Positions 4,770-38,008 of a stretch of 64,000 nucleotides of DNA are shown piece after piece; within the stretch, counting starts at the first letter, position 1, and every line of letters starts with the position of its first letter. Position numbers and translations under genes: made by a program. Source of the DNA: Polaromonas sp. JS666. GTDB taxonomy: Bacteria > Pseudomonadota > Gammaproteobacteria > Burkholderiales > Burkholderiaceae_C. Below the pieces are notes generated by a model. The model was not told where the DNA came from. It did not search any database and saw only the letters and a list, made by a program, of their open reading frames with translations. The stretch covers positions 4,703,001 through 4,767,000 of the forward strand of contig NC_007948.1 of the NCBI RefSeq assembly GCF_000013865.1, in the 5' to 3' direction.

Positions 4770-5882
4770 TTATCCTTTGAGATGGAAGAACTGCCGGATC
4801 GCGGCCACGGCGCGGTCCACACCGGCAGCGTCCACATCGAGGTGCGTGACAAAACGCAGGCGATACAGGCCCGTGGCCTGAATGCCGTGATCGGCCAGGT
4901 ACTTGAGCAGGGCGGCAGATTTGTCGCGGGCCGCGCCGCTCAGGTCGACAAAGAGGATATTGGTCTCGGGCGCTTCCACGTGCAAGCCCTCAATCCCCGC
5001 CAGACCGTCGGCCAGTTGCCGGGCCAGCGCATGGTCCTGCGCCAGGCGTTCAATGTGATGGTCCAGCGCGTAGCTGGCGGCGGCCGCCAGCATGCCGGAC
5101 TGGCGCATCGCGCCGCCGGCCATCTTGCGGACGCGGCGCGCCCGCGCAATGAACTCGCGCGAGCCGCACAGCGCGGAGCCCACGGGCGCGCCCAGCCCCT
5201 TGCTGAAACACACCGACACGCTGTCGAAACACTGGGCGATGCGCCTGGCTTCGGCGACGGCACTGTCGCGGGTAACTTCCGTTCGCACTGAGCCTGTCGA
5301 AGTGCCTGCAGCGGCTTCGACAAGCTCAGCCCGAACGGACAGTGCGGCTTGCGCCACGGCGGCGTTGAACAGCCGCGCGCCGTCCAGATGGCGGCTCAGG
5401 CCTTTGGCCTGCGCCAACTGCGTGGCCTGCTGCACATAGCCAAACGGCAACAGCTTGCCGCCCAGCGTGTTTTCCAGTGCCAGCAGTCGGGTGATCGCAA
5501 AATGCGGGTCATCGGGCTTGATGGCAGCTTCGATCTCGGCGACCGCCAGCGTGCCGTCGGGCTGGTGGTTCAGCGGCTGCGGCTGCACGCTGCCAAACAC
5601 CGCCGCACCGCCGCCTTCCCAGCGGTAGCAGTGCGCCATCTGGCCGACGATGTATTCGTCGCCGCGCTGGCAGTGGCTCAAGATCGCGCAGAGGTTGCTC
5701 TGCGTGCCGGTGGGTACAAACAGCGCGGCCTCAAAGCCCAGCATGCCGGCAATTTTCTCCTGCAGCGCGTTGACGCTGGGGTCGTCGCCAAACACGTCGT
5801 CGCCCAGCGGCGCGGCCTGCATGGCTGCACGCATCGCGGCGCTGGGCTGGGTGACGGTGTCGCTGCGCAGATCAACAACCAT
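4770..5882 (-). CDS. ltaE: Low-specificity L-threonine aldolase, with an in-frame repeat insertion
   Basis: A PLP enzyme that cleaves L-threonine or allo-threonine to glycine and acetaldehyde. The 370-residue protein has the N-terminus DLRSDTVTQPS, the HLDGARLFNAAVA motif (about 165-177) and the PLP-lysine motif CFSKGLGAPVGS (Lys228). It is longer than the usual 330-350 residues. Residues about 183-201 are encoded by an imperfect inverted repeat (5281-5336) that keeps the frame and lies in a loop between the HLDGAR motif and the PLP lysine. Both flanking motifs are intact, so the enzyme may still work. It starts 60 nt after trpG. Confidence 0.93.
   Translation of the reverse strand: MVVDLRSDTVTQPSAAMRAAMQAAPLGDDVFGDDPSVNALQEKIAGMLGFEAALFVPTGTQSNLCAILSHCQRGDEYIVGQMAHCYRWEGGGAAVFGSVQPQPLNHQPDGTLAVAEIEAAIKPDDPHFAITRLLALENTLGGKLLPFGYVQQATQLAQAKGLSRHLDGARLFNAAVAQAALSVRAELVEAAAGTSTGSVRTEVTRDSAVAEARRIAQCFDSVSVCFSKGLGAPVGSALCGSREFIARARRVRKMAGGAMRQSGMLAAAASYALDHHIERLAQDHALARQLADGLAGIEGLHVEAPETNILFVDLSGAARDKSAALLKYLADHGIQATGLYRLRFVTHLDVDAAGVDRAVAAIRQFFHLKG
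5281..5336. repeat. Palindromic repeat inside ltaE
   Basis: Two 22-nt arms, GTTCGCACTGAGCCTGTCGA(AG) at 5281-5302 and CTTCGACAAGCTCAGCCCGA(AC) at 5315-5336, are inverted copies matching at 19 of 22 positions. The spacer is 12 nt. The arm resembles a dispersed palindrome known from many beta-proteobacterial genomes (recalled, not searched). The whole unit is translated within ltaE. Confidence 0.85.
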
Positions 5883-5942: not shown

Positions 5943-6515
5943 TCATGCCCGCTGCTCCAGGAAGTTCTTCAGCATGGCATGGCCGTGCTCGGTCAGGATG
6001 GATTCGGGGTGGAATTGCACGCCCTGAATGGGCAGCTCCTTGTGGCGCACGCCCATGATCTCGCCGTCGTCCGTCCACGCCGTGACGGCCAGCACGTCCG
6101 GGCAGGACGACTTCTCGATGGCCAGCGAGTGGTAGCGGTTCACGACAAACTGCTCCGGCAGTTCGGCGAACACACCTTGCTGCGTGGTGGTGATCACGCT
6201 GGTCTTGCCGTGCATGAGCTGCCGGGCCCGGATGATCTTGCCGCCAAACGCCGCGCCAATGCTCTGGTGGCCCAGGCAGACGCCCAGGATGGGCAGCTTG
6301 CCGGCGAAGTGCTGGATCGCCGCCACCGAAATACCGGCCTCGGCCGGCGAGCAAGGCCCGGGCGACACCACCAGGAGATCAGGCGCGCGCGCGGCGATGC
6401 CCTCCAGCGTGATCTCGTCGTTGCGAAAGACTTCAACCTCGGCGCCCAGCTCACCAAAGTACTGGACGATGTTGTAGGTGAAGCTGTCGTAGTTGTCGAT
6501 CATCAGGAGTTTCAT
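5943..6515 (-). CDS. trpG: Anthranilate synthase component II (glutamine amidotransferase)
   Basis: Supplies ammonia from glutamine to TrpE. The 190-residue class I amidotransferase has [18 protein letters not shown] N-terminus, the nucleophile motif [10 protein letters not shown] (Cys near 79) and the C-terminal [10 protein letters not shown] with the His-Glu pair. The ATG at 6515 overlaps the chorismate mutase stop as ATGA, which indicates translational coupling. Confidence 0.97.
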
Positions 6516-6829
6516 GATCCTGCCCCTTCTTTCAGGCGTGCGAATTCGCCCTGCTCAAACTCGATGAATGCGGCAATCATGGCGCGGTAGGTCGCCTCCA
6601 TGACGGCCTCGGGGGCACCGGCCTGCCTGGCCTGCGCACGCACGCGGTCGATGATGAAATCGATGCGCGCCTGGTCGTAAACCTGATCCGCGCGCTGCTT
6701 GATGCGCGCGGCCTGGGCCACATAGCCGCTGCGCTCGGCCAGCAGGGCCACGATGCGGTCATCGAGCGCATCGATGTGCCGGCGCACGTCGGCCATGGTG
6801 TCGCAATGTTGGACGACTACCGTGCTCAT
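6512..6829 (-). CDS. AroQ-type chorismate mutase (PchB-like possible)
   Basis: A 105-residue all-helical protein of the AroQ fold: [20 protein letters not shown], then [12 protein letters not shown] and a third helix ending MIAAFIEFE. Chorismate mutases make prephenate from chorismate; the closely related PchB type also acts as isochorismate-pyruvate lyase, and the sequence alone does not separate the two. The start at 6829 is chosen because its ATG overlaps the trpE stop (ATGA); the trpG start overlaps its own stop in the same way. The three genes therefore form a coupled cassette that competes for and divides chorismate. Confidence 0.88.
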
Positions 6830-8406
6830 TCCAGGCCCTCCTCGACCAGTTCGCTGGCGCGCAGCAAGGCGCGCGCCTTGGCTTCGGTTTCTTTCCATTC
6901 CAGCTCGGGCACCGAGTCAGCCACCACGCCGGCCGCCGCCTGCACATACAGGGTCTGGTCCTTGATGATGCCGGTGCGGATCGCAATGGCCACGTCCATG
7001 TCGCCCGCATAACTGAGGTAACCGCAGGCGCCGCCATACAGGCCGCGCTTGGTGGGCTCCAGCTGGTCGATCAGTTCCATCGCATGCACCTTGGGCGCGC
7101 CGGTCAGCGTGCCGGCCGGGAAGGTCGCCTTGAGCACATCCATGCTGGTCATGCCATCGAGCAAGACGCCTTCGACGTTGCTCACGATGTGCATCACATG
7201 GCTGTAGCGCTCCACCGCAAAGGCTTCGGTCACCTTGACGGTGCCGGTTTTGGCGATGCGGCCGATGTCGTTGCGCGCCAGGTCGATCAGCATCACGTGC
7301 TCGGCGCGCTCCTTCGGGTCATTGACCAGCTCCTGCTCGACCGCCTTGTCAGCCTCGATGGACGAAGCGCGCGGGCGGGTGCCGGCCAGGGGCCGGATCG
7401 TGATCTTCTGCTCGAACTGGGCCCCCACGCTCGTCACTGGCGTGTACTCGCTGCCCCCCGAGGGGGCGTTCGCGTCTTGGGGCGGCCCGGCGACGCGAGC
7501 CACCTGCTCCTGCCGCACCAGAATCTCAGGCGACGCCCCCACCACATGGAAGTCGCCAAAGTGGTAGTAGTACATGTAGGGCGAGGGGTTGAGCGCGCGC
7601 AGCGCCCGGTACAGGCTCAGCGGCGACTCGGTGTAGCGCTTCTTGATGCGCTGGCCCACCTGCACCTGCATGAAATCGCCGGCCTCGATCAGCCGCTTGG
7701 CGCGCTCTACCGCGGCAATGTAGTCGGCCTTGGCAAAGTCACGCTCGGCCGGATAGCCCTGCGAGGGCTTGACGACCGGCGCGCTGACGGAGTATTTGAG
7801 CTGCTCCTTGAGCTCACGCAGGCGCTTCTTGGCGTTGGCAAAGGCCTCGGGCTGGGCCGGATCCGCGTACACGATCAGGTAGAGCTTGCCCGAGAGGTTG
7901 TCGATCACGGCCAGTTCTTCGCACTGCAGCAGCATGATGTCGGGGCAGCCCAGCGTGTCCGGCGGGCAGGAGGCTTCGAGTTTTTTCTCGATGTAGCGCA
8001 CCGTGTCATAGCCAAAGTAACCGGCCAGTCCGCCGCAAAAGCGCGGCAGGCCGGGCCTGAGCGCGACCTTGAACCGTTTTTGGTAGTCACTGATGAAATC
8101 CAGCGGATTGACTCGCGAGGTTTCGATGACCCGGCCGTCCTTCACCACCTCGGTGAGCATGTCGGCCCCGAAGCCCGAGCAGCGTATCAGCGTACGCGCG
8201 GGCAAGCCAATAAAGCTGTAGCGGCCAAAACGCTCGCCACCCACCACCGACTCCAGCAAAAAGCTGAACTTGCCGCCGTCTTTGGCGTTGGCAAGCTTGA
8301 GGTAGAGCGACAGCGGGGTTTCGAGATCGGCAAACGCCTCCAGCATCAGCGGAATGCGGTTGTAGCCCTGGCTGGCCAGGCTTTTAAATTCGAGTTCAGT
8401 AATCAC
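6826..8406 (-). CDS. trpE: Anthranilate synthase component I, with an in-frame repeat insertion
   Basis: Converts chorismate to anthranilate with TrpG. The 526-residue protein has the tryptophan-feedback element FSFLLESVVGGERFGRYSF near the N-terminus. The C-terminal chorismate-binding domain is present, with TIRPLAGTRPR, ERAEHVMLIDLARNDIGR and FPAGTLTGAPKVHAMELID. It is about 25-30 residues longer than usual. Residues about 302-329 are encoded by an 84-nt copy (7420-7503) of a GC-rich repeat that also occurs between genes in this window. The insertion lies just before the EQKITIRPLAGTRPR strand and keeps the frame. Expression is probably controlled by the leader at 8455-8662. Confidence 0.97.
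   Translation of the reverse strand: MITELEFKSLASQGYNRIPLMLEAFADLETPLSLYLKLANAKDGGKFSFLLESVVGGERFGRYSFIGLPARTLIRCSGFGADMLTEVVKDGRVIETSRVNPLDFISDYQKRFKVALRPGLPRFCGGLAGYFGYDTVRYIEKKLEASCPPDTLGCPDIMLLQCEELAVIDNLSGKLYLIVYADPAQPEAFANAKKRLRELKEQLKYSVSAPVVKPSQGYPAERDFAKADYIAAVERAKRLIEAGDFMQVQVGQRIKKRYTESPLSLYRALRALNPSPYMYYYHFGDFHVVGASPEILVRQEQVARVAGPPQDANAPSGGSEYTPVTSVGAQFEQKITIRPLAGTRPRASSIEADKAVEQELVNDPKERAEHVMLIDLARNDIGRIAKTGTVKVTEAFAVERYSHVMHIVSNVEGVLLDGMTSMDVLKATFPAGTLTGAPKVHAMELIDQLEPTKRGLYGGACGYLSYAGDMDVAIAIRTGIIKDQTLYVQAAAGVVADSVPELEWKETEAKARALLRASELVEEGLE
7420..7503 (-). repeat. GC-rich palindromic repeat, coding copy in trpE
   Basis: The minus strand reads GCCGGGCCGCCCCAAG, then GCCCCCTCGGGGGGCAGCGAG, then a spacer and GAGCGTGGGGGCC. 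The same modules in the same order occur at 36226-36316 and 37909-38008 between genes, and at 56255-56337 in the second aroE. Exactly 28 codons are added to trpE. Confidence 0.82.
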
Positions 8407-36182: not shown

Positions 36183-36225
36183 GAATGAAGACTCACGGCT
36201 GGCTGGGTGACGGTTCTTTTTCAAG

Positions 36226-36316
36226 CAGGGGCCGCGGAACCGGCTTTGCCGGGCCGCAGGCGCAGCGGCCCCCTCGGGGGGCAGGGAGCCACACGCAGTG
36301 GGCGACCGTGGGGGCT
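36226..36316 (+). repeat. GC-rich palindromic repeat downstream of rpoN
   Basis: CAGGGGCCGCGGAACCGGCT, then GCCGGGCCGCAGGCGCAGC, GGCCCCCTCGGGGGGCAGGG and CGACCGTGGGGGCT. It lies between rlmL and rpoN. It is closely related to 37909-38008 and to the coding copies in trpE and aroE. Confidence 0.82.
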
Positions 36317-37908: not shown

Positions 37909-38008
37909 TTTCAAGCATGGGCCGCGGAACCGGCTCTGCCGGGCCGCAGGCGCAGCCCCCTTGAGGGGGGAGGGTGCTACACGAAGTGAGCAAACAACGG
38001 GGGGGAGC
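37909..38008 (+). repeat. GC-rich palindromic repeat upstream of rpoN
   Basis: TTTTTCAAGCATGGGCCGCG, then GAACCGGCTCTGCCGGGCCG, CAGGCGCAGCCCCCTTGAGG and a block ending AACAACGGGGGGGAG. It shares a long near-identical left half with the copy at 36226-36316, so the two copies bracket rpoN. Confidence 0.82.

Follow-up and report, generated by a model that had tools for sequence, protein, structure and literature searches.

How does a dispersed repeat come to be read as part of a biosynthetic enzyme, and what allows it to remain there? The trpE gene of Polaromonas sp. JS666 raises this question. The genome has 5,898,676 bases in 3 contigs, the largest of which (C1) has 5,200,264 bases. We analysed a window of 64 kb, C1:4703001-4767000; positions below are those of the window unless a contig is given.

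The repeat in trpE and its subfamilies

The trpE gene, encoding component I of anthranilate synthase, occupies 6826..8406 of the minus strand. It has a GTG start, and its ORF of 526 aa is open from end to end. The product scores 512.8 bits with the NCBIfam model TIGR00564, slightly below the cut-off of 517.7. The match falls into two stretches, the second of which restarts at residue 345 of a 541-aa frame, directly after the element (residues 316-344). PF04715 and PF00425, the precomputed domains of protein P0002, also served as evidence for trpE. Downstream lie an ORF of a type II chorismate mutase (6512-6898) and a glutamine amidotransferase ORF (5943-6515), judged by its place to be trpG.

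The repeat (VARVAGPPQDANAPSGGSEYTPVTSVGA) is at 7420..7503 of the minus strand. The first-pass annotation had described it as translated without a stop or frameshift, and this holds: its 84 nt are exactly codons 302-329 of the 526-aa ORF. On the minus strand it is made up of an outer arm of a variable hairpin stem (CTCGCGTC, 7492..7499), the constant head motif GGCCGCCCCAAG (7476..7487, placed from the pattern match G000:C1:4710454-4710487), an inner arm (GACGCGAA, 7469..7476), the core palindrome CCCCCTCGGGGGG (7454..7466) and the end GTGGGGGC (7421..7428, read directly from the sequence). The last base of the head motif is the first base of the inner arm, and the arms pair at 7 of 8 positions.

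Two intergenic copies lie on the plus strand on the two sides of rpoN, at 36224..36316 and at 37909..37995. The aligned part of the latter stops near 37991; its end had earlier been placed at 38008. These copies are 86% identical to each other over 84-87 columns. In a search of the 64 kb window, the trpE block was 78% identical to 36248-36315 over 73 columns (E 1.7e-8). The same modules had been assigned to the trpE block and the rpoN repeats. This is correct for the core CCCCCTCGGGGGG and for the tail up to GTGGGGGC, but the trpE copy has the head of a different subfamily. We call the trpE-like subfamily T and the rpoN-like subfamily R. Among the 40 candidates scored in each block or repeat search of this genome, the counts of which are lower bounds, the closest copies of the trpE block were 92% identical over 76 nt (C1:577857) and 89% identical (C1:1516674). 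The block is thus similar to the repeat found across the genome. When up to 2 mismatches are allowed, the bare core occurs 7 times in the 64 kb window, and it is not rarer in shuffles, where 5.2 occurrences are expected. It is the longer match and the genome counts that make the case for a repeat exceeding chance, not the bare core in the window. We confirm that a dispersed GC-rich repeat inside the trpE reading frame is a real observation.

Both subfamilies contain the core palindrome and the tail ending with GTGGGGGC. In T, the head GGCCGCCCCAAG lies between two arms; in R, the head ends with CCGCAGGCGCAGC. The genome contains 142 exact places of the core palindrome (1 for the reversed-pattern control), 72 of the T-head pattern (control 0) and 93 of the R pattern (control 0). 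The minimum distance between a T and an R place is 78 bases, so each copy was counted once. It turned out that all 165 copies are on C1. The two smaller contigs, with 698,412 bases, would be expected to carry 19.5 copies by length and carry 0 (P 9e-10). The unit, measured from a chosen start to GTGGGGG and therefore partly set by the anchors, is 82-83 nt long in 52 of 72 T copies and 89-91 nt in 74 of 93 R copies. Neighbouring T copies less than 300 apart are spaced by 81, 84, 84, 88, 84 and 84 (84 in 4 of 6 cases); the corresponding R spacings are 101-105 in 8 of 14 cases and 118-216 in the rest. The T pattern was present in 226 of 299 sampled genomes of the family and in 110 of 126 genera, with a highest count of 103 and one control hit noticed. 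With an R copy as the query, the repeat was found at E up to 1e-5 in at least 18 of 399 genomes of the order. At least 5 of these, with similar repeats of like architecture, belong to another family (f4). Two candidates per genome were scored in this search, which makes these numbers lower bounds.

T heads also occur with other tails, at C1:291404 (L148), 1098290 (L162), 2078788 (L180), 2205800 (L182), 25783 (L141) and 5174708 (L235). There are at least two such tails, CCCC.GAGGGGCTGGAGCC...GACAGGCGAC and CCCCGTTTCC.CGTGAAAGGGGCAGCGC..., and the family is therefore a mosaic of modules. A variant of R with CCGCAGGCGGGCGG is found at eight places of the R list: C1:257362, 604403, 604760, 610657, 640898, 1022486, 3770583 and 4310292. 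At the gathering scores, Rfam models matched only three tRNAs in the 64 kb window; in 6 repeat loci, the sole match with E up to 1 was a chance one to a microRNA model.

The closest known family is the Beta-proteobacterial repeat element (BRE) of Hot et al. 2011 (PMC3110155). BRE is about 90 bp long (75-91 bp in Bordetella), GC-rich, chromosomal and arranged in tandem arrays; it is mostly intergenic, with some copies entirely inside coding sequences, and its largest count, 29, was given for Polaromonas sp. JS666. T and R are similar in unit size (about 82-91 nt, depending on the anchors), in tandem copies with few or no bases between them (T spacing 81-88, R 101-105 in 8 of 14), in chromosomal location (165 of 165 copies on the 5.2 Mb contig) and in being mostly intergenic (26 of 165 intragenic, see below). 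They differ in number, with 165 copies in two subfamilies here against the 29 given there; moreover, section 14 of that paper contains no reading frames, host genes, empty sites or stem covariation. The repeat is most probably BRE, matched by description and not letter by letter with the Bordetella element. In two f4 genera (6 and 11 genomes), of the four f4 genera with matches, there was no repeat pattern beside lexA, so that no documented Bordetella BRE locus was recognised.

The TrpE loop in relatives

We assessed where the insert lies in the protein. In the AlphaFold2 model (AlphaFold2 was run on 50 sequences), TrpE has a mean pLDDT of 85.4, and residues 306-328, between the strands 295-303 and 331-345, are the only segment below 50. 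In the alignment to the solved TrpE 7bvd, the match ends at query residue 298 (chain 326) and resumes at 334 (chain 331), so that 35 query residues face 4. The insert is thus predicted to be a disordered loop in a hairpin turn. The block had been said to add exactly 28 codons. This is correct as the length of the block, but the net gain is 27 residues when compared to the nearest empty Polaromonas TrpE (a loop of 54 versus 27 residues), and it is smaller still where the loop of the relative is longer.

Of 80 TrpE loci, 61 yielded the loop motif, and only two of these, L061 and L098, carry a repeat-like insert. Among these loci, the 28 residues are therefore not a conserved part of TrpE. The loop has 55 residues in L061 (a Polaromonas MAG), 53 in L098 (a Rhodoferax MAG), 38 in L064 and L066, and at most 33 in the rest. 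In L098 the repeat is inserted in the opposite orientation. Two protein searches were also performed with insert-bearing queries, and the best 120 proteins of each were taken; insert frequencies in these lists are biased because of this choice. These TrpE proteins contained sense inserts of several stem classes, a tandem insert (P0016), antisense inserts and shortened versions. Other small repeats occur within the TrpE insert in P0066 and P0082. Some insert-bearing TrpE genes lie on long contigs; that of P0054, named Rhodoferax sediminis, is on 4.39 Mb.

The insert could be one old lineage-specific indel of TrpE that is inherited vertically and merely resembles the repeat, and its stability in the 12 close-relative proteins P0003-P0014, in which all 28 residues align, agrees with this. 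To examine its history, a FastTree tree was built from 260 of 300 TrpE sequences with the loop removed. The 40 omitted sequences were those lacking the loop motif (19 loci and 7 proteins) and 14 proteins under 450 aa; 25 loops of the class "other" were kept in the group table and omitted from the first count of changes. Insert labels cluster on the tree (none of 500 shuffles gave so low a value), as an inherited indel would predict. However, the sense label changes 40 times and the antisense label 26 times, and 23 and 20 of these changes, respectively, are forced by strongly supported branches. The counts pool gains and losses; they come from a sample enriched in inserts and may be inflated by recombination. 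The variety of inserts in this one loop, which are sense, antisense or tandem and differ in their stems, also speaks against a single old indel, as does the 92% identity over 76 nt with a copy elsewhere in the genome. We regard this explanation as scarcely credible.

That trpE has domesticated the insert as a regulatory or structural part, retained for what it does in tryptophan synthesis, is also very improbable. The insert and the rest of the protein are similarly conserved in the 12 close relatives (89-100% and 91-96% identity, respectively), as would be expected of such a part. Yet most relatives have no insert or shortened versions, the insert is predicted to be disordered, and the same kind of insert is found in unrelated enzymes. 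Thus, we have shown that the same turn of TrpE holds sense, antisense, tandem and shortened versions of the repeat in other Burkholderiales, while most relatives are without it.

Inserts in other protein genes

Copies were assigned to genes in 95 stretches around them by an open frame and coding-like codon use on both flanks. This filter was passed by 28 of 165 copies (24 of 72 T and 4 of 93 R). L159_876608 (T) and L166_1268991 (R), two candidates that matched no family model, were dropped before the counts. After family-model matches, 26 of the 165 copies were intragenic: 23 of 72 T, of which 19 are secure, and 3 of 93 R. The four doubtful T copies outside the secure 19 are L161_1030425 (weak match), a copy in a LysR gene (match upstream only) and two in the GH94-like protein L212 (downstream only). 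T copies are found in genes more often than R copies (Fisher p 4e-7 with 23 T copies, p 1.4e-5 with the secure 19). Stops do not explain this bias, because open frames are about equally frequent in R and in T.

Genes with inserts and good family evidence number 19 (16 T, 3 R). T copies are carried by genes for a MadB-type ATPase, RecJ, RlmI, FolC (two tandem copies), GcvP, HrpA, CobQ, P450, kynureninase, PhzF, PriA, TrpE, molybdopterin oxidoreductase, GlnE (one copy and two in tandem), an APH-fold protein and SulP. R copies are carried by genes for XdhA, a histidine phosphatase and RsmA/KsgA. The family models of the hosts mostly span the element or match on both its sides. It had been suggested that the repeat is tolerated in one reading frame. 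In fact, both orientations occur in genes, but each has one main frame: among the 21 genic T copies with the GTGGGGG end, it is used by 8 of 9 sense and 11 of 12 antisense copies. The frames used by genes are open in 50 (sense) and 49 (antisense) of the 59 T copies with this end, and the neighbouring frames in 53 and 58. Openness alone does not set the frame, since the neighbouring frames are open more often than the prevailing ones.

Other repeats may also be translated in this genome. XdhA (L171:451-2325, minus strand) and HrpA (L189:1180-3633, plus strand) contain the stretches SPHPNPLPGGEG and PSPQPSPKGRG...LPLPLGEGRGEG, which resemble translated copies of yet another repeat family. In the window, LSVRAELVEAAAGTSTGSVRTEV at 5278-5339 (minus strand) comes from an unrelated palindrome with the arms TTCGACARGCTCAG at 5288 and 5316; the arm motif has only 3 further occurrences in the 629 kb examined. 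It lies within ORF 4770-5882 (minus strand), residues 4-315 of which match the Beta_elim_lyase profile (1-286) and which by eye is a threonine aldolase.

GlnE and RecJ were compared at the DNA level with the best 29 other loci of 60 and 59 matching genomes, respectively, our own included. Site 2 of GlnE carries two tandem antisense copies in JS666. Of the 29 congeneric loci, 26 are without the repeat and one (L259) is filled with a longer array; L241 and L242 fall into neither class. At site 1 of GlnE, 23 loci were inspected: L248, L258, L259 and L261 contain clear repeats, and a few others have remnant-like stretches by eye. At this site in L259 and L261, two or more repeats stand in a row, with a predicted lengthening by tens of residues. 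The RecJ site is empty in 23 of the 29 congeneric loci, carries a sense insert in 5 (L284-L288) and antisense repeats in 1 (L311, seen from one side). The net gains are 78 bases in RecJ, 165 at site 2 of GlnE and 81 in TrpE, all multiples of three. Judging from TrpE, GlnE and RecJ loops with and without the repeat, it appears to add in-frame segments to proteins, as the first-pass annotation had proposed, and comparison of relatives suggests that the same loops were hit more than once.

The repeat had also been called mobile or spreading by copying. It does lie at sites where congeners have no insert, as seen in the DNA for GlnE and RecJ and in the loops for TrpE, but no transposase is tied to it. 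We found no enzyme and no terminal signal for the repeat. No target-site duplication of the MITE kind was seen by eye at GlnE site 2 or RecJ, the two DNA-compared sites, which are few and old; some target bases there are replaced and not duplicated. A REP-associated tyrosine transposase (RAYT) could mobilise the repeat, as it does classical REP, and the genome contains one Y1_Tnp match (C1:813752-814072). However, no T or R copy lies within 12 kb of this gene, the nearest being 12.6 kb away, so that T and R do not flank a RAYT gene; this disfavours a RAYT as the mover. This one gene would have to serve at least 165 copies. T and R copies are about 82-91 nt long, in contrast to the REP hairpin of 20-40 bp, and no terminal GTAG was seen by eye in the aligned copies. 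Mobilisation by a RAYT is thus unlikely. We consider it very probable that the block is a copy of a small gene-less palindromic dispersed repeat, most probably BRE, that landed in the DNA of the TrpE hairpin turn and stayed. We propose that it persists because the loop it encodes is in frame, free of stops and disordered.

Intragenic repeats as such are already known. Rickettsia palindromic elements and other intragenic GTAG/CGTC REPs lie inside ORFs of unrelated proteins, adding 20-30 residues; over half of the intragenic repeats are dimers or groups, the hosts include repair genes, and recB was hit at about the same site in X. campestris and X. oryzae (PMC3733652). The enterobacterial RU-1, RU-2 and RU-3, MITE-like small mobile sequences of 103-168 bp, are also reported to occur intragenically (PMC2759123). 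The resemblance of T and R to all of these is one of description. Like the Rickettsia elements, they are small palindromes inserted in frame in unrelated protein genes, but they are found in other bacteria and show no GTAG end by eye; RU-1, RU-2 and RU-3 are another family. The comparison with Rickettsia made at first is therefore apt for the way of working, in-frame insertion, and not for membership, the likelier family being BRE. In searches of the open-licence literature, no listed title or abstract described repeated insertion of this repeat into the same loop or its compensated stem. To a kind that is known, the present analysis adds how far the inserts extend, the loops that were hit repeatedly, the preference of T for genes, and the stem.

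The hairpin stem and the origin of the insert

We collected 84 T heads from the stretches around copies and assessed the pairing between their arms; the arm windows were fixed after inspection of the sequences. The longest Watson-Crick run between a copy's own arms was 5.2 on average, compared to 3.6 (maximum 3.8) with the arms re-dealt, and was at least 4 in 81 of 84 heads. The stem is bulged in 44 heads. In the other 40, with a direct 8-bp stem, 7.65 of 8 positions pair, versus 5.24 (maximum 5.98) with the arms re-dealt. Among the 25 distinct direct stems the value is 7.48 of 8, versus 4.63 (maximum 5.6) in 2000 arm shuffles. The inner arm is unique to one copy in 11 of 23 genic copies and in 13 of 61 others. 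In the RecJ inserts, presumably orthologous, one change is two-sided, with T-A in JS666 and C-G in L284. Thus, we have shown that the arms of the first T hairpin are complementary although their sequence varies between copies, coding copies included. We know of no report that stems of the Rickettsia elements keep their pairing while their sequence is free.

RNA folding gives a different picture. Shuffled sequences fold as well as the trpE copy does (its z is -0.08 for the mRNA strand and -0.52 for the opposite strand), and the RecJ copy is ordinary (z -0.32). Therefore, for these two copies a selected RNA fold or RNA stability as the function is not supported. Two R copies have lower energy (z -1.58 and -2.23). 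We also considered that the inner arm is copied from the target. Homology between RecJ and its empty congeners breaks off near query base 785, short of the outer arm (791-798). Nor was the arm of the trpE copy seen in the two empty Polaromonas sites compared, so this explanation is not supported.

For the stem only, it is possible, if rather doubtful, that a mutational process (quasi-palindrome correction by template switching) keeps the arms paired without selection for the fold. This would agree with the pairing kept in coding copies and with the ordinary folding of the trpE copy. However, the pair compensated in L284 is broken in the RecJ copy L286, and some stems recur with identical sequence (AATTTTCC/GGAAAATT in 10 copies), which points to inheritance from source copies as well.

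The spread of the repeat may have proceeded as follows. A source copy folded as a single strand, either of RNA or of DNA at the replication fork, would serve as the template for each new copy. Its stem could be kept paired by template switching from arm to arm or by selection for the fold. Selection would remove the copies that break the frame or the protein fold, leaving those in tolerant turns. Tentatively, we suggest that the repeat is copied or repaired via its folded form, so that the stem drifts freely and the arms are rewritten to match each other even inside genes, and that the element may act as a recurrent natural insertion scan across the family, through which enzymes gain loops of some 28 residues at a small number of permissive turns.

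The best-known palindromes that insert into proteins are those of Rickettsia, where one might put them down to the laxity of a reduced genome. The genome studied here has 5.9 Mb and carries such inserts in about 19 genes, including those of DNA repair, folate and nitrogen control. In relatives, these loops can be seen empty, filled, doubled or shortened. The entry of new peptide loops into enzymes, the choice of turns that accept them and the possible copying of a hairpin in its folded form thereby become directly testable.
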